15,944 nucleotides of DNA. Origin: an uncultured Clostridia bacterium. GTDB lineage: Bacteria; Bacillota; Clostridia; Peptostreptococcales; Anaerovoracaceae. Location: positions 1 through 15,944 of the forward strand of contig CAKQNZ010000034.1 of NCBI GenBank assembly GCA_934255435.1, read 5' to 3'. Position 1 is the stretch's first letter. Each line of letters opens with the position of its first letter. Positions 2,797-15,944 of this stretch are shown piece by piece. Position numbers and translations under genes: made by a program. The notes beneath the pieces are model-generated. The model did not search any database. It worked only from the letters and a program-made list of their open reading frames with translations, and had not been told where the DNA came from.

Positions 2797-3378
2797 TTAG
2801 TTCCATGCCGGTGCTGCATTCCATGCTTCCGCAGCTGTCCCGAATCCGTCAGCCTGTACTGCGTAGGCTTCTACTGTTATTGTCTTTCCTGCATGATCTG
2901 CAACCTTTGCATCATCCTTTACCTTGAAAGTATCGAATACTTTGATGTCCTGACCGGCAGTCACAGTTGTTCTGTAAGCGTAAACATTTGTCGCTCCGGC
3001 TACAGCTGTCCAGCCATTTGCTGCCATCTGTGCTGCAACGGTATCATCGGCTTCTATACCAGCGATCTCATCCACTACCTTGACGAACAGCCAGCTTTCT
3101 TCACTTCCTGCAGTTACGTGTACTGTTGGATCCTTTGTGTAGTTATGTCCGGGTATGAGCTTGTAAACGTTATCTTTTACTCTGGCTGCGCCTTCTACAG
3201 GAACTCCGGTCTCGTCTACCTTCTCCTCGTCCAGTGTGATATTCACATTACCTGCCGTGAATGTATTTGTCACTGTATCTGTCTTTGAGGTCAGATACGC
3301 CATTGTTCCCAGTACGCTCCCCACTACAAGTACCACTGCGGAAAGTACCGTAAAAAAAACTTTCTTCTTGCTTTTCAT
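2797..3378 (-). CDS. TasA-like fibre protein with SipW-type signal peptide (first subunit)
   Basis: This 193-residue protein begins MKSKKKVFFTVLSAVVLVVGSVLGTMAYLTSKTD and then TNTFTAGNVNITLDEE. AYLTSKTD followed by NTFTAGNVNITLDE is the standard junction of SipW-dependent proteins of Clostridia. A later block, YKLIPGHNYTKDPTVHV, resembles the strand that in this family precedes the conserved Ig-like core, and the C-terminus AWNAAPAWN is Trp-rich. The start has a strong AGGAGGAG ribosome binding site. It is the first subunit gene after sipW, 62 bp downstream. Its small size and place next to sipW suggest the major subunit; this is inference from gene order. Confidence 0.88.
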   Translation of the reverse strand: MKSKKKVFFTVLSAVVLVVGSVLGTMAYLTSKTDTVTNTFTAGNVNITLDEEKVDETGVPVEGAARVKDNVYKLIPGHNYTKDPTVHVTAGSEESWLFVKVVDEIAGIEADDTVAAQMAANGWTAVAGATNVYAYRTTVTAGQDIKVFDTFKVKDDAKVADHAGKTITVEAYAVQADGFGTAAEAWNAAPAWN

Positions 3379-3440: not shown

Positions 3441-4130
3441 TTATTTGCTCCTGTCGTTTCCAGGACAGACAGAGCTATCGGTCACCACCGGTCTGCCGGT
3501 TTTCTTTGCTGTGACGTTCTGCACATGAGCTGAACGCTCCGGAGATAGTATTTTCTCCTCAGCAACCCCCTGTCCGCTATGCTCCCCGGAAGCACATTTC
3601 CGGCTTTTGCTCAGGCTGCCACGGCTGCCTTTGCTGCTTTCAAAGAGATCTGGCAGGAACGCCAGCAGTATTATCAGTGCTGCTGCTGCCAGCGCAAGGT
3701 ATCTGCCCGGCGGTTCCTTTACATATGCTGCAAAATAGCCGAGATACGGTATCGTGAATACCGGCTTTCCTATGAGATTTTTGAAATGCACAGGAGATGC
3801 GTCCGGATTTTCGTTGGCATCGCCCTTGGTATAGAAATACTGATTTTTTTCGTCGATCTTTATGACTCTGTGTGTTGCGACTGTAAGATTTTTGTCGAGA
3901 ATGAATGTTATAGGATCCCCTGTTTTTATATCCTGCGGGGCTGTCTTTTTCACATATATCAGCGAACCTGTATGATATGCCGGTTCCATGGAACCTGACA
4001 GGACGCTGTATGTCTGAAAACCGGCCGCCTTTGCCCCGACCAGCAGGACGACCATACCCACAGCAATGATCACAAGAAATGTTGTAACGGCAGAGTAGAT
4101 CTTCCTGCCTGATGTTTTGTTTTTCCCCAT
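3441..4130 (-). CDS. sipW: Signal peptidase I, SipW / ER type
   Basis: This 229-residue membrane protease removes the signal peptides of the three TasA-like proteins encoded downstream. An N-terminal membrane helix (about 12-33) leads into the catalytic segment VLSGSMEP with nucleophile S47. The second active-site region is ATHRVIKI with H87 where bacterial-type enzymes have lysine; the Ser-His pair is the mark of the ER-type branch that includes Bacillus SipW. A conserved acidic segment KGDANENPD follows (D104, D110). A second membrane helix lies at about 143-160. The tail beyond it, some 70 polar residues rich in Ser, Lys and Gly, is longer than usual for SipW. An AGGTGA site precedes the ATG. 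It is the first gene of the operon, with a likely promoter about 120 bp upstream. Confidence 0.93.
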   Translation of the reverse strand: MGKNKTSGRKIYSAVTTFLVIIAVGMVVLLVGAKAAGFQTYSVLSGSMEPAYHTGSLIYVKKTAPQDIKTGDPITFILDKNLTVATHRVIKIDEKNQYFYTKGDANENPDASPVHFKNLIGKPVFTIPYLGYFAAYVKEPPGRYLALAAAALIILLAFLPDLFESSKGSRGSLSKSRKCASGEHSGQGVAEEKILSPERSAHVQNVTAKKTGRPVVTDSSVCPGNDRSK

Positions 4131-5632: not shown

Positions 5633-5683
5633 CCGGCTGCTCTCCCGGATCGATATCCCGCAATCTGCTATATCAGCAGCCGG
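5633..5683 (-). terminator. Stem-loop at the 3' end of the nuclease-like gene
   Basis: A perfect 9-bp inverted repeat, CCGGCTGCT at 5633-5641 and AGCAGCCGG at 5675-5683, brackets the stop codon of the gene ending at 5668. Shorter complementary blocks lie inside the loop. There is no T run after it on the minus strand, so an intrinsic terminator is doubtful; it may stabilise the 3' end of the mRNA. Confidence 0.35.
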
Positions 5684-6465
5684 CTTTCTATGATCTGTCT
5701 GATGGTATTTTCAGACCGGATGTCTTCCTCGTATGTGCATATGAGGTTCGTATGCTGGACGAAGCCTTCCCGCCGGTACATTTCGATTTTGTGCATCGTT
5801 TTCTGGAAGTAGTCGCTGTTATCCATCAGTCCGAAATGTTCCCATAATATTTTCTGGTGGCTCCGTTTCAGTATCGTAAAATCCGGATAGAACACACCGC
5901 TGCCAAGGATCACCGGTGCTTCATATTTATAGATGATCCCGTATTCATCCAGGCAGTCCGCAATGGTCCTTTCTGATTTTGAGCGCACCATAAGACCTGA
6001 GCTGGTACGGTATATGAGACTGTCACTGTAACTTTCCATGATCGGAGTCTTTTCTTCAAGCCATTTTCTGTCCATTTCACTGAGGTCCATTCGTCTGCCA
6101 CCAAAAATCTGCTTTATCCGCTGGGTTTTATCTGTCCCGCTGCCGCTGCGTTTTCTTTTTATTTTCGATAGCGCCTTTTCTATTTCATAGCGGCATGTTT
6201 CGATATCTTCAAGTTCATTTTCTGCTATGTGCTTCCTGGCAAGTTCGATAGTCCTGCTGTCTCTGCGGCTGCAGCTTTTCTCGACTCCGCAGGTCTTGTG
6301 ATAGCATTTGAAACGTCCGCCATCGGTTTTTATGTAAAGTTTCCCCTCCGGGCATCCTGCCAGTTCATGCTGCAGTTCCTTTTTTCTGTCGGCAGCATAT
6401 TCGCAAAGAGTATCCAGCGCTGTCAGTATATTGCCGGGTGCCCCTGATGATAACCCATTTTGCAT
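5668..6465 (-). CDS. PD-(D/E)XK nuclease-like protein of unknown function
   Basis: The product has 265 residues from the chosen ATG at 6465. I chose it because AAGGAAAGGA stands 10-20 bases upstream, and because the longer frame from a TTG at 6600 overlaps a well-formed promoter. The N-terminal half (1-130) is charged and helical, with a segment GKLYIKTDGGRFKCYHK. The C-terminal half carries a nuclease-like core: SKSE (E165), YPDF (D195) and WEH (E209), spaced like the catalytic acids of PD-(D/E)XK enzymes. Similar stand-alone proteins are common in gut Clostridia and are usually left as hypothetical. A restriction or DNA-repair role would be guesswork. It is transcribed alone from its own promoter. 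Confidence 0.78.
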   Translation of the reverse strand: MQNGLSSGAPGNILTALDTLCEYAADRKKELQHELAGCPEGKLYIKTDGGRFKCYHKTCGVEKSCSRRDSRTIELARKHIAENELEDIETCRYEIEKALSKIKRKRSGSGTDKTQRIKQIFGGRRMDLSEMDRKWLEEKTPIMESYSDSLIYRTSSGLMVRSKSERTIADCLDEYGIIYKYEAPVILGSGVFYPDFTILKRSHQKILWEHFGLMDNSDYFQKTMHKIEMYRREGFVQHTNLICTYEEDIRSENTIRQIIESRLLI

Positions 6466-6571
6466 ATTTCTATTCCTTTCCTTGCTGAGAAATACTGATC
6501 TTCCGAGCACATCATGAAAAGCCTCCGTCATCAGGTTCCAGTCTTTATGCACATGAAAAATCATTTTACAT

Positions 6572-6600
6572 ATTTTACTATATATAGCATCCCTCGTCAA
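6572..6600 (-). promoter_or_regulatory. Sigma-A-type promoter of the nuclease-like gene
   Basis: On the minus strand TTGACG (6600-6595) and TAAAAT (6577-6572) are separated by exactly 17 bp. Transcription would begin near 6565, leaving a leader of about 100 bases before the ATG at 6465. This rules out the upstream TTG as translation start. Confidence 0.75.
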
Positions 6601-7818: not shown

Positions 7819-8331
7819 ATGAACAAAGAGCTTCTGCATGAACTTTACTTCATGTATGCAAAAGAAATCTATCTTTACCTTTATTCCCTCTGCAAAAACA
7901 GCTCCGCAGCCGAAGATCTGATGCACGATGTTTTCGTCCAGGCAATCATGGCCCTGAACGACGATCACCCCAACTTCCGTGCATGGCTTTACAAGGTAGC
8001 GCACAATCTTTGCATAAACAGGCTGCGAAAAGAGCAGAAGCTGGACTTCAGAGACGATATGTCAGAAGACAGTGCCGCCGGTATCACTGACGATATACTG
8101 ACAGACTTACTAAAAACAGAATATCACAGAACACTCTACAAATGCATGGACAGGCTCCCTGCCGTCCAGAAGGAAGTACTTTTCATGGAATATTTTTCCG
8201 AAATGAACAACAAGGACATTGCTGCAGCACTGGGGCTGAAGCCCAATAACGTCCGTGTCATAGCACACCGGGCGAGGAAAGAACTTAAATCAATGCTCGA
8301 AAAGGAAGAGGAGGTCGATGGTGAGCTTTAA
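7819..8331 (+). CDS. ECF-type RNA polymerase sigma factor
   Basis: This 170-residue protein has only the two core sigma-70 domains. Region 2 spans about 5-75 with AEDLMHDVFVQA (core binding and -10 recognition) and FRAWLYKVAHNLCINRLR. Region 4 spans about 105-160 with LPAVQKEVLFMEYFSEMNNKDIAAALG followed by the helix-turn-helix NNVRVIAHRARKEL. This length and layout are those of extracytoplasmic function sigma factors. AAGGAGG at 7808-7814 supports the ATG. The next gene, a membrane anti-sigma factor, overlaps it by 14 bp, so the two are coupled and the sigma factor is probably held inactive until a surface signal arrives. A TGTAAC block at 7772-7777 may be part of the promoter, but no convincing ECF -10 was found to show autoregulation. 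Target genes are not visible. Confidence 0.92.
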   Translation: MNKELLHELYFMYAKEIYLYLYSLCKNSSAAEDLMHDVFVQAIMALNDDHPNFRAWLYKVAHNLCINRLRKEQKLDFRDDMSEDSAAGITDDILTDLLKTEYHRTLYKCMDRLPAVQKEVLFMEYFSEMNNKDIAAALGLKPNNVRVIAHRARKELKSMLEKEEEVDGEL

Positions 8332-9541
8332 AGAATACCTTGAAAAATACAAAAATGGCACAGCAACCCCAGAAGAGAAGAAGCTGGTTGAAGAAGAACT
8401 GGAAAAGTTCGAAGCTCTGAACGATTTGGCTTACGATAATCTGACTGAAGAGATCAGCGACCTGGGCGGATCCGGACCTGACGACAGCGAAGATACAGCT
8501 GTTACCGCAGGAACCGAACGGGTCACCAGCGAAAGCCAGAAATTTACCAGAGCCATAAACCGTGAGATCAGAAAAACTTTTATCAGGATCGGGCTCTGTT
8601 CAGGTGCCGGAGTACTGGTGATACTGCTGTTCCTGATATTCGGACTTTCCCCGGTAATGAATCTCATGTACTACAATCCGGACGAAGCCCTCTGGACAGT
8701 TTCAAAAGACGATAACAGCTATGTTCCAAACCGGCTGTCTGTAGATATGGACGTATATACCGAGCTTCTGATACCCCTCAACAAATACACTTCATCCATG
8801 ACCATATCCCAGGGATTCGGCAGATACTATTTTACAGCCAACAAGACGGCATGGCATCCGGAATATGAGGAAAACACCACCATTGCCGGAGAGATAAGCC
8901 GCAGCAACCTTCAGATATTCACGCCTGACGTTCTGGAAAAGCCTTCTGACAACGTCATGGGACTTACTGACAAAAGCAATCAGGACAGTGTGATGTACGG
9001 CACCAGGCCGGAAGATGCAAAAGAAGAGATCAGACAACTCAAGGACAGCAAAAAACCTGTAAAGGCATATGTCACCCTCAGCAAAGACCTGACATATCCG
9101 CAGGTCCACAAACTCTGCATGAAATACGATCTGTTTTCCATATGGTGCGGTATAAGGCTTCCCGGCAACAAAATGGGATACGGCTTCACTACAGACACCA
9201 GCGGTGCATGTTACGAGAAGGACTGCCCACTCAACAAAAAATATCCGGAGCTGCTGTACTCGGATACGTCAGACGTAAGCAGTGACGACCCGAAGAAGCT
9301 GGCCGGTTTCTACAAAAAACATTTCACCAGCATGCTGCAGTACATGGCAGACAACCCGGAATTCGCCGAAATGATGGATAACAGCAGCTTTTTCGAAAAA
9401 AAAGACATCGATGAAATGGTGTCATACATAAATAAAAAAGGCATGAAAATATACGGCTTCGCAGTCTACGCCGACAAAGACACGCTGCTGAAGCTTTACG
9501 ATGAGAGCGATGTCTACGGCATACTCATCAATGCTGACTGA
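8318..9541 (+). CDS. Membrane anti-sigma factor (Sigma_reg N/C domain type)
   Basis: This 407-residue protein starts inside the end of the sigma gene. The cytoplasmic part begins FKEYLEKYKNGTATPEEKKLVEEELEKFE, typical of the N-terminal sigma-binding domain of this regulator family. One membrane helix lies at about 90-112 (IGLCSGAGVLVILLFLIFGL). The remaining 295 residues are outside the cell, with blocks such as NPDEALWTVSKDD and KPVKAYVTLSKDLTYPQVHKL that fit the family's sensor domain. The start has GGAGG just upstream, inside the sigma gene. Its role, inferred from context and architecture, is to bind the ECF sigma factor and release it on envelope stress. The signal is unknown. Confidence 0.85.
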   Translation: MVSFKEYLEKYKNGTATPEEKKLVEEELEKFEALNDLAYDNLTEEISDLGGSGPDDSEDTAVTAGTERVTSESQKFTRAINREIRKTFIRIGLCSGAGVLVILLFLIFGLSPVMNLMYYNPDEALWTVSKDDNSYVPNRLSVDMDVYTELLIPLNKYTSSMTISQGFGRYYFTANKTAWHPEYEENTTIAGEISRSNLQIFTPDVLEKPSDNVMGLTDKSNQDSVMYGTRPEDAKEEIRQLKDSKKPVKAYVTLSKDLTYPQVHKLCMKYDLFSIWCGIRLPGNKMGYGFTTDTSGACYEKDCPLNKKYPELLYSDTSDVSSDDPKKLAGFYKKHFTSMLQYMADNPEFAEMMDNSSFFEKKDIDEMVSYINKKGMKIYGFAVYADKDTLLKLYDESDVYGILINAD

Positions 9542-13722: not shown

Positions 13723-14733
13723 CTAAATATCTATCTTCGTGCCGTTTCCTAACATTATATGCTCATATCCGGATTCTTTCAACAGTTCTCTGCATCTTCC
13801 GATGTCCCAGCCGCGATTTTCCTTGGTGTCGCTGGCAATGTCACGAGGGTTCACGCCTGACTCGGCACATACCATGTTGGCGCCGGACATATATCCCATG
13901 ATGTTCGGTTCGTGGACTGCCATGATCGGCATGCGCTTCATGGATGCAAAAGTCAGTATCTGCACAGCGATGATCTTTGAAAGTGTGAAAGGGCTGATCT
14001 CCAGTTTTCCTTCGAAGGGCGTTCCCGGCACGGATATCCTTTTCATAGCTCCGCACTGGAAAGTTTCCAGCTCACGGCTGAACAGGATATGCTCTGCCAT
14101 CTGCTCCGGCGTGTGTTCCGGTGCGATAGGTTCCAGCGCATCCAGGACTTCCAGTCCGGCTTTCTTTGCGTTCAGCATGGTCTGTTTGCGCTGCTGGGGG
14201 TCGATCCTCGTATCTGTGCCCTCGCCCAGACGCCAGCAGTGGTAGACGCCTGAAATACCGGCCTTTTTCATCTCGACGAAATCCTCGTATGACGTGTCTC
14301 CCACGTTGGAAAACATCAGGGTGCTGCCGTTGAGGTTCTGCCCTGCCAGCTTCACCGACTCCAGGAAATGTTCCAGATCGTACTTGTGCATCGCCATCAG
14401 GTAAAGGCCGTAGAGATCGCCGTTGTATGTGAATTCCTTTGTTTTCTGTATCACTGTTTCAGCATCCATGTGCATGGTACCGAACTGTGTATGATCCTCT
14501 GCGAATGAACAGAACGAACAGTTGGCTTCGCATGGCGCGCAGGCGATGCCTATCTGCCCGAAAAGATATCCGGTATTGCCGTTGCGGGCTCTGATGATCC
14601 CCGACGCAGCACCTCTCACTGCAAAAGCCTCCTCCGAGGCGTCGCCTACAGACAGCAGCGATATACATTCTGCCTTTGTCAGTTCCTGGCCTTCATAAGC
14701 TCTGTCTATTATCTTTCTTATTTCCTTGTCCAT
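13723..14733 (-). CDS. Radical SAM protein of the BioB/HydE/PylB group
   Basis: This 336-residue protein has the radical SAM cluster motif CEANCSFC, that is CxxxCxxC with C68, C72 and C75, expected to hold the [4Fe-4S] cluster that splits S-adenosylmethionine. An additional cysteine stands at C65. The TIM-barrel core runs to about residue 230. The C-terminal third, with GANMVCAESGVNPRDIASD, is the BATS-type region shared by biotin synthase, HydE, ThiH and PylB. The start ATG has GGAG upstream (AAGGAGAAAAATC). No biotin, hydrogenase or pyrrolysine gene is nearby, so biotin synthase should not be assumed. The reaction is unknown. It is driven by a strong promoter that overlaps an inverted repeat. 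Confidence 0.85.
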   Translation of the reverse strand: MDKEIRKIIDRAYEGQELTKAECISLLSVGDASEEAFAVRGAASGIIRARNGNTGYLFGQIGIACAPCEANCSFCSFAEDHTQFGTMHMDAETVIQKTKEFTYNGDLYGLYLMAMHKYDLEHFLESVKLAGQNLNGSTLMFSNVGDTSYEDFVEMKKAGISGVYHCWRLGEGTDTRIDPQQRKQTMLNAKKAGLEVLDALEPIAPEHTPEQMAEHILFSRELETFQCGAMKRISVPGTPFEGKLEISPFTLSKIIAVQILTFASMKRMPIMAVHEPNIMGYMSGANMVCAESGVNPRDIASDTKENRGWDIGRCRELLKESGYEHIMLGNGTKIDI

Positions 14734-15059: not shown

Positions 15060-15352
15060 AACTCATTGGCTGCCATAAAGCGTCTCCTATGTCTCGTGAC
15101 TCTGCCACCATTCTTTGAAAAGTATCGTAACTCGCTGCTTTTCCTTCAAAAACGTCCCTTTCCAAAGAGCGTGACCGCCACGAACGCTGTCATCACTGCT
15201 GCCATACCTTGAAGTGTATCGAAAACAGCAGTTTCCCGGTCAAAAACGTCCCTTTTCGAAGTGTGTGACCGTCACGGCAGGCATTGATCCGGCAGCCCGG
15301 ACCGGAAAAGTATCGAAACAAGATACTTTTCTCTCAAAAACGTCCCATCCCA
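15060..15352. repeat. Tandem array B of the 94-bp repeat, inverted relative to array A
   Basis: CAAAAACGTCCC recurs with CGTCCC at 15153, 15247 and 15341, exactly 94 bp apart, and each copy is preceded by GTATCG(A/T)AA. Read on the minus strand the blocks match array A (GGGACGTTTTTGA and TTTCGATACTTT). The copies here differ more from one another than those of array A. In the unit ending at 15352 the core can fold into AAAAGTATC/GATACTTTT with a 7-base loop. A worn fourth unit may reach back to about 15060. The array lies directly upstream of the aroF leader promoter. Confidence 0.88.
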
Positions 15353-15475
15353 AAATGCAGGATCGCTTACAGATCACATCATCTGCCAGCAGAGCATCGT
15401 CGCACTATCCATTTGTGTCAAAACACAATGATCTTCATTTTTTTTATAGCTCCGCTACAATTTTTTCAAAAATAC

Positions 15476-15504
15476 TTTACATAGCCTGCATTCGGTGTTA
15501 TGAT
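15476..15504 (+). promoter_or_regulatory. Promoter of the aroF leader transcript
   Basis: TTTACA (15476-15481) and TATGAT (15499-15504) are separated by 17 bp, each one base from the sigma-A consensus. The start point is expected near 15511, about 47 bases before the leader ATG. Confidence 0.82.
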
Positions 15505-15557
15505 TTTAAATGATCATCAGAAAATCTAACGATCAATAAATCGAAGGGAAAAAAGCA

Positions 15558-15647
15558 ATGTTCAATAAGGCAGTATTTGCAGCAGAATATTTTTACTTTT
15601 ACTTTACTTTTTATAAGAGTAGAGTGAATTTCGCTGCAATGAGATAA
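15558..15647 (+). CDS. Phe/Tyr-rich attenuation leader peptide of aroF
   Basis: This 29-codon frame runs ATG to TAA, with AAGGG 9 bases upstream. Its residues 10-19 read EYFYFYFTFY: five Phe-type and four Tyr-type positions out of nine after the Glu allow for one Thr, and the peptide holds seven Phe and four Tyr in all. Codons are mainly TTT and TAC/TAT. It lies between the promoter and the terminator of the DAHP synthase gene, and the RNA can switch between alternative hairpins whose choice depends on where the ribosome stands. The peptide itself probably has no function; slow reading of its Phe and Tyr codons would signal shortage of charged tRNAs. Frame, site and structures are seen directly; the control mechanism is inferred from the classical pheA and trp leaders. 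Confidence 0.88.
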   Translation: MFNKAVFAAEYFYFYFTFYKSRVNFAAMR

Positions 15648-15722
15648 GACCTTAAAACAGAGCTTCAACCGAACGAAAAGGCAAACATCTCCGCAAGTGA
15701 AATTCACTTGCGGATTTTTTTT
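15579..15722 (+). promoter_or_regulatory. Ribosome-mediated transcription attenuator of aroF
   Basis: Four segments can be traced. Segment 1 (15579-15587, GCAGCAGAA) pairs with part of segment 2 (15630-15637, TTCGCTGC), with one bulge. Segment 2 (15623-15637, AGTGAATTTCGCTGC) pairs with segment 3 (15693-15708), with one bulged A and about 15 pairs. Segment 3 with segment 4 is the terminator. A ribosome stalled on the Phe/Tyr codons (15588-15614) covers segment 1, frees segment 2 to pair with 3 and lets transcription go on. A ribosome that reaches the stop codon covers segment 2 and the terminator forms. Confidence 0.82.
15690..15722 (+). terminator. Intrinsic terminator of the aroF attenuator
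   Basis: TCCGCAAGTGA (15690-15700) pairs perfectly with TCACTTGCGGA (15704-15714) through a 3-base loop and is followed by eight T residues. A second hairpin, GGTGCTGCA (15725-15733) with TGCAGCGCC (15752-15760), follows and has no T run. Confidence 0.93.
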
Positions 15723-15861
15723 AGGGTGCTGCACATTAAGGTGCACCAGGATGCAGCGCCATACAGGCCGCCGCCGGCCCGGTCTCAAAAGGGCGGACAA
15801 GACAACCCGTAAATATCAAACAGCTTAGAAACAAATGACAGACAGTCAATGGAGGTAGAAA

Positions 15862-15944
15862 ATGATAGTTATATTAAAGGACAACCCGGACCAGAAACAG
15901 CTTGACAACCTGATCTCATGGCTCAAAAGCATGAACCTGGACAT
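15862..15944 (+). CDS. aroF: 3-deoxy-7-phosphoheptulonate (DAHP) synthase, 5' end only
   Basis: Only 27 codons are in the window, reading MIVILKDNPDQKQLDNLISW and then LKSMNLD. A start MIVILK followed by a helix with a spaced acidic/basic pattern is the beginning of the ferredoxin-like regulatory domain that precedes the catalytic barrel in the AroF/TIGR01361-type DAHP synthase of Bacillota. The enzyme joins phosphoenolpyruvate and erythrose 4-phosphate, the first step to chorismate, Phe, Tyr and Trp. GGAGG stands 7 bases before the ATG. The call rests on a short stretch, but the Phe/Tyr leader upstream agrees with it strongly. Genes further downstream in the operon are outside the window. 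Confidence 0.78.
   Translation, partial: MIVILKDNPDQKQLDNLISWLKSMNLD

Follow-up and report, generated by a model that had tools for sequence, protein, structure and literature searches.

The window, by which we mean the whole 15,944-nucleotide stretch of DNA analysed here, closes on the plus strand with the first 27 codons of an aroF gene encoding DAHP synthase (15862–15944, cut at the window end), whose ATG (15862–15864) follows the ribosome binding site GGAGG (15851–15855). The 27 residues match those of the relative L038 at 26 positions, and the L038 gene scores above the cut-off for NCBIfam DAHP synthase models; the closest aroF start that we saw, in Bacillota bacterium isolate S1R_St_67 (genome G002, locus L005), agrees at 26 of 27 residues. 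Upstream on the same strand, a consensus scan predicts a promoter-like site, TTTACA-17-TATGAT with a TG before the -10 (extended -10; 15476–15504, 10 of 12 matches). A ribosome binding site, GAAGGGA (15544–15550), then lies 7 nt before the ATG at 15558 of a 29-codon leader reading frame (15558–15647) that reads MFNKAVFAAEYFYFYFTFYKSRVNFAAMR up to its stop and is conserved in relatives, the leader of G002 reading MLIKTFAAEYFYFYFTFFRGKVNFAAMG. Codons 11–19 form the run YFYFYFTFY (15588–15614), marked as the putative sensor by its sequence and by folding with a ribosome. An intrinsic terminator hairpin of 11 pairs with a loop of 3 (15690–15714), recovered by terminator scan, by folding and in relatives, is followed by eight Ts (15715–15722).

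Folding and comparison with relatives place three further segments in this region. Segment 1 (15577–15588) covers the codons of FAAEY and pairs with segment 2 (15619–15645), which consists of the codons of RVNFAAMR plus the first base of the stop codon and can pair with either segment 1 or segment 3. Segment 3 (15687–15711) begins just before the terminator and forms the antiterminator with segment 2; it spans the 5' arm, the loop and most of the 3' arm of the terminator, which refines the earlier segment picture. Every part that the initial annotation had named was found, namely the promoter, the ribosome binding site, the 29-codon leader, the mutually exclusive pairings, the 11-bp terminator with its T run and the aroF start. 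An Rfam scan of the window returned no family at the gathering score, and the T-box (RF00230) gave no match at that score. The gap between terminator and aroF (15723–15861, about 139 nt) is long for this leader family, in which most relatives have 20–130 nt and L038 has 202, and contains a predicted hairpin in the GGTGCTGCAC...GTGCAGCGCC region. Just upstream of the leader promoter lie three degenerate 81-nt direct repeats (15102–15370) spaced by exactly 94 nt, the later copies being 74% and 65% identical to the first.

The three pairings are mutually exclusive when the window is folded, and each is more stable than expected from shuffled sequence. The stretch holding pairing 1:2 (15575–15645) folds with -21.4 kcal/mol (z -5.2), that holding 2:3 (15612–15712) with -26.4 kcal/mol (z -4.5) and the terminator stretch (15650–15722) with -18.9 kcal/mol (z -3.8), with 0 of 200 shuffles as good in each case; for two longer stretches of the window, 3 and 1 of 200 shuffles were as good. 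We then folded the RNA with a stalled ribosome, omitting the RNA behind it and letting its leading edge reach 12 nt beyond the point where the A-site codon begins. Under these settings the probability of the terminator is 0.975 with codon 11 in the A site, falls to 0.004–0.141 at codons 12–19 (FYFYFTFY), is back at 0.999 for codon 20 and all later positions up to the stop, and rounds to 1.00 without a ribosome, such that the antiterminator is favoured solely while codons 12–19 of the F/Y run occupy the A site. Footprints of 6, 9, 15 and 18 nt keep this 8-codon block and shift it by one codon per 3 nt. The predicted behaviour is that of a switch: if either charged tRNA were scarce, a ribosome would stall in codons 12–19 and cover segment 1, freeing segment 2 to form the 2:3 antiterminator so that RNA polymerase reads through, whereas with both charged tRNAs ample the ribosome would reach the stop codon, mask segment 2 and let the terminator form. 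Without any ribosome, 1:2 would pair and the terminator would form too. Such a switch would require ribosome and polymerase to be coupled.

Aromatic leaders of this kind are widespread upstream of aroF. Our family-level set, the family being the one drawn around genome G001, held 120 aroF regions (10 from located genomes, 30 best family-level matches and 80 further ones); L040, which is below the DAHP synthase cut-off, and L057, which is without upstream sequence, were removed and the window was added, giving 119. A detector calling a frame of 10–60 codons in which a stretch of 10 residues contains 5 or more aromatic ones, and then a folded terminator that starts between -30 and +130 nt relative to the leader stop, found a leader and terminator in 75 of the 119 regions, in 2 of 119 dinucleotide shuffles, in 5 of 119 reverse complements and in 3 of the 355 upstream regions that were taken from other ORFs of L001–L030. 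Its folding-based terminator finder replaced a perfect-stem version (46/119), and it accepts the doubtful loci L099, L032 and, at class level, L184 while overlooking some loci that have runs (L069, L114, L127 and L043). At order level, 25 of the 30 best matches carry a leader and terminator, the leader being of another type (YYFNFYWGFYFFSASYFAW and similar), and at class level 13 of the 30 best matches and 21 of 40 further genes do (34 of 70 with an aromatic leader); the sets include near-identical relatives (e.g. L044, L046 and L088), so the draws are not independent. The aromatic leader, in which the initial annotation saw an attenuator unusual for Bacillota, is thus not unusual among the Clostridia aroF genes sampled. 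A leader sequence model gave 51 hits spread over 49 of the 197 family genomes; among 299 genomes of the phylum it recovered copies in 7, one of them G001.

Two features of the leader are maintained in its ten closest relatives, the aromatic run and the codons that pair. The columns of the run, the Thr column excepted, are 70–100% aromatic, with exchange of F and Y, and TAT and TAC occur 5:5 at Tyr 11 and 6:4 at Tyr 13. At codon 16 all ten have TTT for Phe, and at codon 15 eight of the ten have TAC for Tyr, a constraint explained by the pairing of both codons within the inner hairpin, which lies inside the run. The expectation that the run would be kept while the other leader residues vary held in these sequences, but the codons of the paired segments are invariant (GCA in segment 1; GTG, GCT and GCA in segment 2).

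The MAFFT alignment (A2) misplaced the terminator arm in part of its rows, and the pair counts therefore come from another alignment, whose fit used no information but the sequence; of its 58 rows, the 33 that are full-length were kept. Among these, standard pairs occupy 85% of cells in the outer 1:2 pairing, 77% in the inner hairpin, 80% in 2:3 and 87% in 3:4, as against at most 56% for registers slid by 1–3, or 55% if the inner hairpin is set aside. Shuffling one side reached the observed pairing in 42 of 300 trials for outer 1:2 and in none of 300 for the inner hairpin, 2:3 or 3:4, and reached the count of double-change pairs in 47, 0, 35 and 8 of 300 trials, respectively. For 2:3, the real register has 10 double-change pairs, the register slid by -1 has 12 and that slid by +3 has 10. 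All three pairings are hence kept, as the initial annotation had predicted, and of the covariation it expected in each, that of the terminator and of the inner hairpin is clear, that of 2:3 is modest and that of outer 1:2, whose core columns hardly vary in the 33 rows, is weak.

We also asked whether the alternative structures can be recognized in individual loci. The antiterminator duplex, taken as the best one between the stretch after the run and the first part of the terminator, was compared with shuffles of that stretch at p ≤ 0.05. It is better than the shuffles in 54 of 75 loci at family level, in 10 of 25 at order level and in 24 of 34 at class level; for 1:2 the corresponding counts are 29 of 75, 14 of 25 and 16 of 34. 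Equilibrium folding at full length shows the switch in 7 of the 75 family members, the window included. When the transcript is modelled as unfinished, with its end inside the 3' arm of the terminator, 55 of 75 have an antiterminator above 0.5 with the ribosome in the run and at less than half that value with it at the stop. Its mean under this model is 0.60 before the run, 0.69 in the run, 0.24 at the stop and 0.36 without a ribosome; given 0.60 before against 0.69 in the run, this model does not set the run apart from the codons ahead of it. Real spacers gave a mean of 0.69 compared with 0.39 for shuffled ones and were better at p ≤ 0.05 in 40 of 75.

The best evidence for attenuation comes from the genes behind the leaders. 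Operon genes of G001, G002 and G069 were named by their best NCBIfam matches, some of them below curated cut-offs; after aroF come tyrA, aroB, aroA, aroC, pheA (chorismate mutase/prephenate dehydratase) and a fused aroE-aroK, with aroB not found in the aroF operon of G001. We infer that the window's own operon, beyond 15944, likewise contains tyrA and pheA. Seven places located by the leader model lacked a listed aroF alongside, judged by coordinates, and were read individually. Two precede a lone pheA (G119 and G043), one precedes tyrA (G141), three are aroF leaders (G043, G183 and G193) and the seventh (G027) stops at a contig edge. The lone pheA genes, which have a PDT domain above cut-off, follow leaders with Phe-only runs (KFFFSFTF in G119, TFFFDSFTF in G043), and the leader before tyrA in G141 has YYYYYLF. 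The aroF leaders of the same two genomes are Tyr-rich (AYAYYYSYYYF in G119, AYAYYYSYWY in G043), and the aroF operon of G119 has tyrA and lacks prephenate dehydratase.

Forty further regions were then read, 20 of them picked partly for extreme leaders and 20 regardless of composition, and 44 leaders were tabulated. Operons with both tyrA and pheA have an F share of 0.29–0.75 and leaders with both residues in 28 of 28 cases, those with pheA and without tyrA have 0.86–1.00 (Phe leaders in 4 of 4), and those with tyrA and without pheA have 0.00–0.29, mostly Tyr, in 8 of 9, the ninth (G015) being at 0.50; three operons with neither gene have 0.00, 0.33 and 0.75. By rank tests on F share, tyrA-only operons lie below those with both genes (p = 4e-5) and pheA-only operons above them (p = 7e-4), in a sample that is partly biased and whose relatives are not independent. 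Restricted to the 20 composition-blind regions and the first three operons, the comparison retains three tyrA-only cases (p = 0.04) and no pheA-only case. G118 combines both situations, as its aroF operon, with pheA and without tyrA, has a Phe run and its separate tyrA stands behind the leader AAEYYYYRLY. Within this partly biased sampling, then, the leader codons appear to track operon content, and the mixed run in all operons with both genes strengthens the proposal that the window's leader senses both Phe and Tyr. Leaders are present at 2 of 6 lone pheA genes (those of G060, G015, G009 and G031 are without one) and at 2 of 4 lone tyrA genes (G009 and G031 are without one), a check that left out the second-operon heads of G057, G076, G090, G176 and G203; tyrA was not found in G042, and no leader was detected at the aroF-pheA pairs of G083 and G041 (L134 and L098).

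From these comparisons, the region is very probably a transcription attenuator in which the ribosome responds to the supply of charged tRNA-Phe and tRNA-Tyr and thereby controls a Phe/Tyr operon headed by aroF, as the initial annotation had proposed. This reading is favoured by the anatomy, by the sharply bounded 8 codons at the F/Y run for which folding predicts antitermination, by the recurrence of leader and terminator in 75 of 119 regions at low control rates, and by the agreement of leader composition with the genes of the operon, which extends to the leaders of split genes (G119, G043 and G118). It is also favoured by the lack of a known RNA family in the window and of a T-box at any of 34 class-level leader loci. 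As in a classical attenuator, a translatable leader carries a run of codons for the products of the pathway, exclusive 1:2, 2:3 and 3:4 pairings are kept in relatives, and in folding a stalled ribosome frees segment 2 while one at the stop masks it. Against it stand the small number of equilibrium switches (7/75), the before-run antiterminator value close to that in the run, the lone pheA (4 of 6 genomes) and tyrA (2 of 4) without leaders, the weak covariation of outer 1:2 and a 2:3 register that, slid by one, does as well in double changes.

A different kind of sensing would be arrest of the ribosome by the nascent leader peptide, in which the peptide sequence is read and not the decoding of codons, as in TnaC, an arrest-peptide sensor for Trp. 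The order-level leaders do share a rather constant core, WGFYFFSAxYFAW, as such a peptide might. We nevertheless regard arrest as very improbable, as F and Y interchange both in the window's group and in the order-level group, residues outside the codons of the paired segments vary in the window's group, and runs turn all-Phe or Tyr-rich with operon content; in the ten close relatives the run changes synonymously, and we did not see residues fixed beyond what pairing needs. 

It is slightly less probable still that an RNA aptamer, a T-box or an RNA-binding protein works the terminator and that the reading frame is incidental. T-boxes, which sense tRNA charging by reading the tRNA directly without a leader frame, do precede aroF elsewhere in Clostridia. 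The class-level scan covered all 70 loci. A T-box in the orientation of aroF lies upstream of the gene at 10 of the 36 loci without a leader (L182, L187, L194, L212, L213, L215, L218, L219, L220 and L233) and at none of the 34 with one (Fisher p = 0.001), with opposite-strand T-boxes in L156, L164 and L185. The family-level scan covered 14 leaderless loci, of which two (L080 and L089) have a T-box, and 10 leader loci, of which none has; in L080 and L089, a match to a tRNA gene on the opposite strand comes after the T-box, next to the leaderless aroF. T-box and leader thus look like alternatives at the same gene. Against this reading, neither the window nor 20 family-level loci (10 of them leader-bearing) gave an Rfam match, the frame, its start, the Shine-Dalgarno sequence and the aromatic codons are kept though the RNA sequence changes, and codon identity tracks operon content. 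A frame that arose by chance before the ordinary terminator of some upstream transcript is scarcely credible. Promoter and terminator motifs by themselves are frequent, with three promoter-like sites in the 745-base region against 1.4 expected and one terminator by motif alone against 0.7; however, the first gene upstream to have a Pfam match lies on the minus strand, the detector rarely fires on shuffles (2/119) or other ORFs (3/355), and conservation in relatives contradicts it.

The classical leader-peptide attenuators are those of pheA and trp in Proteobacteria. The leader described here resembles them in its sensor codons, its segments 1–4 and its terminator with a U run, and differs in its mixed Phe/Tyr (or Tyr-rich) run, its phylum, the absence of an Rfam match and the position of segments 1 and 2, both of which lie inside the frame as FAA codons. 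The T-box differs as well, as it is absent from the window, though it also precedes aroF in other Clostridia. We know of no Tyr-specific leader attenuator described before. Several related systems are in print. Trp attenuators are known in Actinobacteria (PMC1262725), and in C. glutamicum a Phe-Tyr-Phe leader precedes aroF, a DAHP synthase gene (PMC4046766), which by its description is set apart by its short run and actinobacterial origin. The uORFC-13-1 motif (PMC8632094), a proposed Phe uORF with at least one Phe before aroF that is described only from Acholeplasma and environmental sequences, shares the promoter, start codon, U-rich Phe coding and terminator upstream of aroF, and is set apart by its description, which mentions neither Tyr sensing nor a match with operon genes. 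His leaders precede his genes in Bacillus and Clostridium difficile (PMC2965389, PMC4833913) and S. aureus has a Leu-rich ilv-leu attenuator (PMC5794164); these are leader-peptide attenuators in Bacillota too, but for other amino acids and genes. With his and ilv-leu examples in print for Bacillota, and with aroF leaders on record for Acholeplasma and C. glutamicum, the initial annotation's view of such an attenuator as unusual needs correction. The suggestion of an undescribed leader family fares better in part: the mechanism itself is known, but in open-access literature, searched by titles and the starts of abstracts and with subscription papers mostly outside its scope, no description of a Clostridia aromatic leader family was found. 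As far as checked, the family appears to be new, as do its distribution among Clostridia and the match of codons to operons.

More broadly, we think it likely that aromatic attenuators form a large, undescribed set in Clostridia, with several leader types and a presence at about half of the sampled aroF genes. Gain or loss of pheA and tyrA by the operon would go with a re-tuning of the sensor codons to Phe, to Tyr or to the two together, Tyr-specific attenuators included. Such a set would replace T-boxes at the same gene and would imply that ribosomes keep close behind RNA polymerase in this part of Bacillota. The match of leader codons to operon genes amounts to a natural swap experiment, in that the sensor codons shift as expected where pheA and tyrA separate, and it tells what a leader reads ahead of bench work. 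As a rule (all-Phe, Tyr-rich or mixed run), it could let annotation predict the regulation of the aromatic pathway in many uncultured Clostridia. The leaders also offer test sites for the open question of how tightly translation is tied to transcription in Bacillota; the two are reportedly uncoupled in B. subtilis (work ascribed to Johnson et al., 2020), although ribosome-mediated attenuation of bmrCD has also been reported in the same species.

Other leader types were seen alongside this one. Leaders of the WGFYFFSAxYFAW type at order and class level (L151–L179, L185 and L206–L210) include Trp and precede a lone aroF or aroF-tyrA; their Trp codons may indicate sensing of all three aromatic amino acids. 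A third type, NYYYGxFxGLFTxFTGYFWR (L041, L042, L045, L047, L050, L052 and L071), belongs to a distinct aroF clade, and the operon of the one locus read (L300) is without tyrA and prephenate dehydratase.

The window contains several other genes. A radical SAM gene (13723–14733, minus strand) is the nearest upstream gene to the leader with a Pfam match; its product is 96% identical to one protein and 69% identical to a Clostridiales MAG protein (L001, G001). A contig scan with this single protein gave no loci, and a search with an alignment gave 30; in L001, no aroF was seen next to the radical SAM gene among ORFs of at least 150 aa. Its relatives, named biotin synthase by one source, are patchily distributed over Family XIII, Coriobacteriia, Treponema and archaeon-titled MAGs. 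A 310-aa reading frame at 5668–6600 on the minus strand has no Pfam match at 0.001. Between 1178 and 4130, a signal peptidase-like gene (3441–4130, minus strand) is followed by small secreted-looking genes, one of which (2797–3378, minus strand) has a weak camelysin match, a cluster that we take to be reminiscent of SipW/TasA clusters. Finally, 7819–9541 holds a sigma-70 family gene and, after it, a gene whose product has a sigma factor regulator domain.
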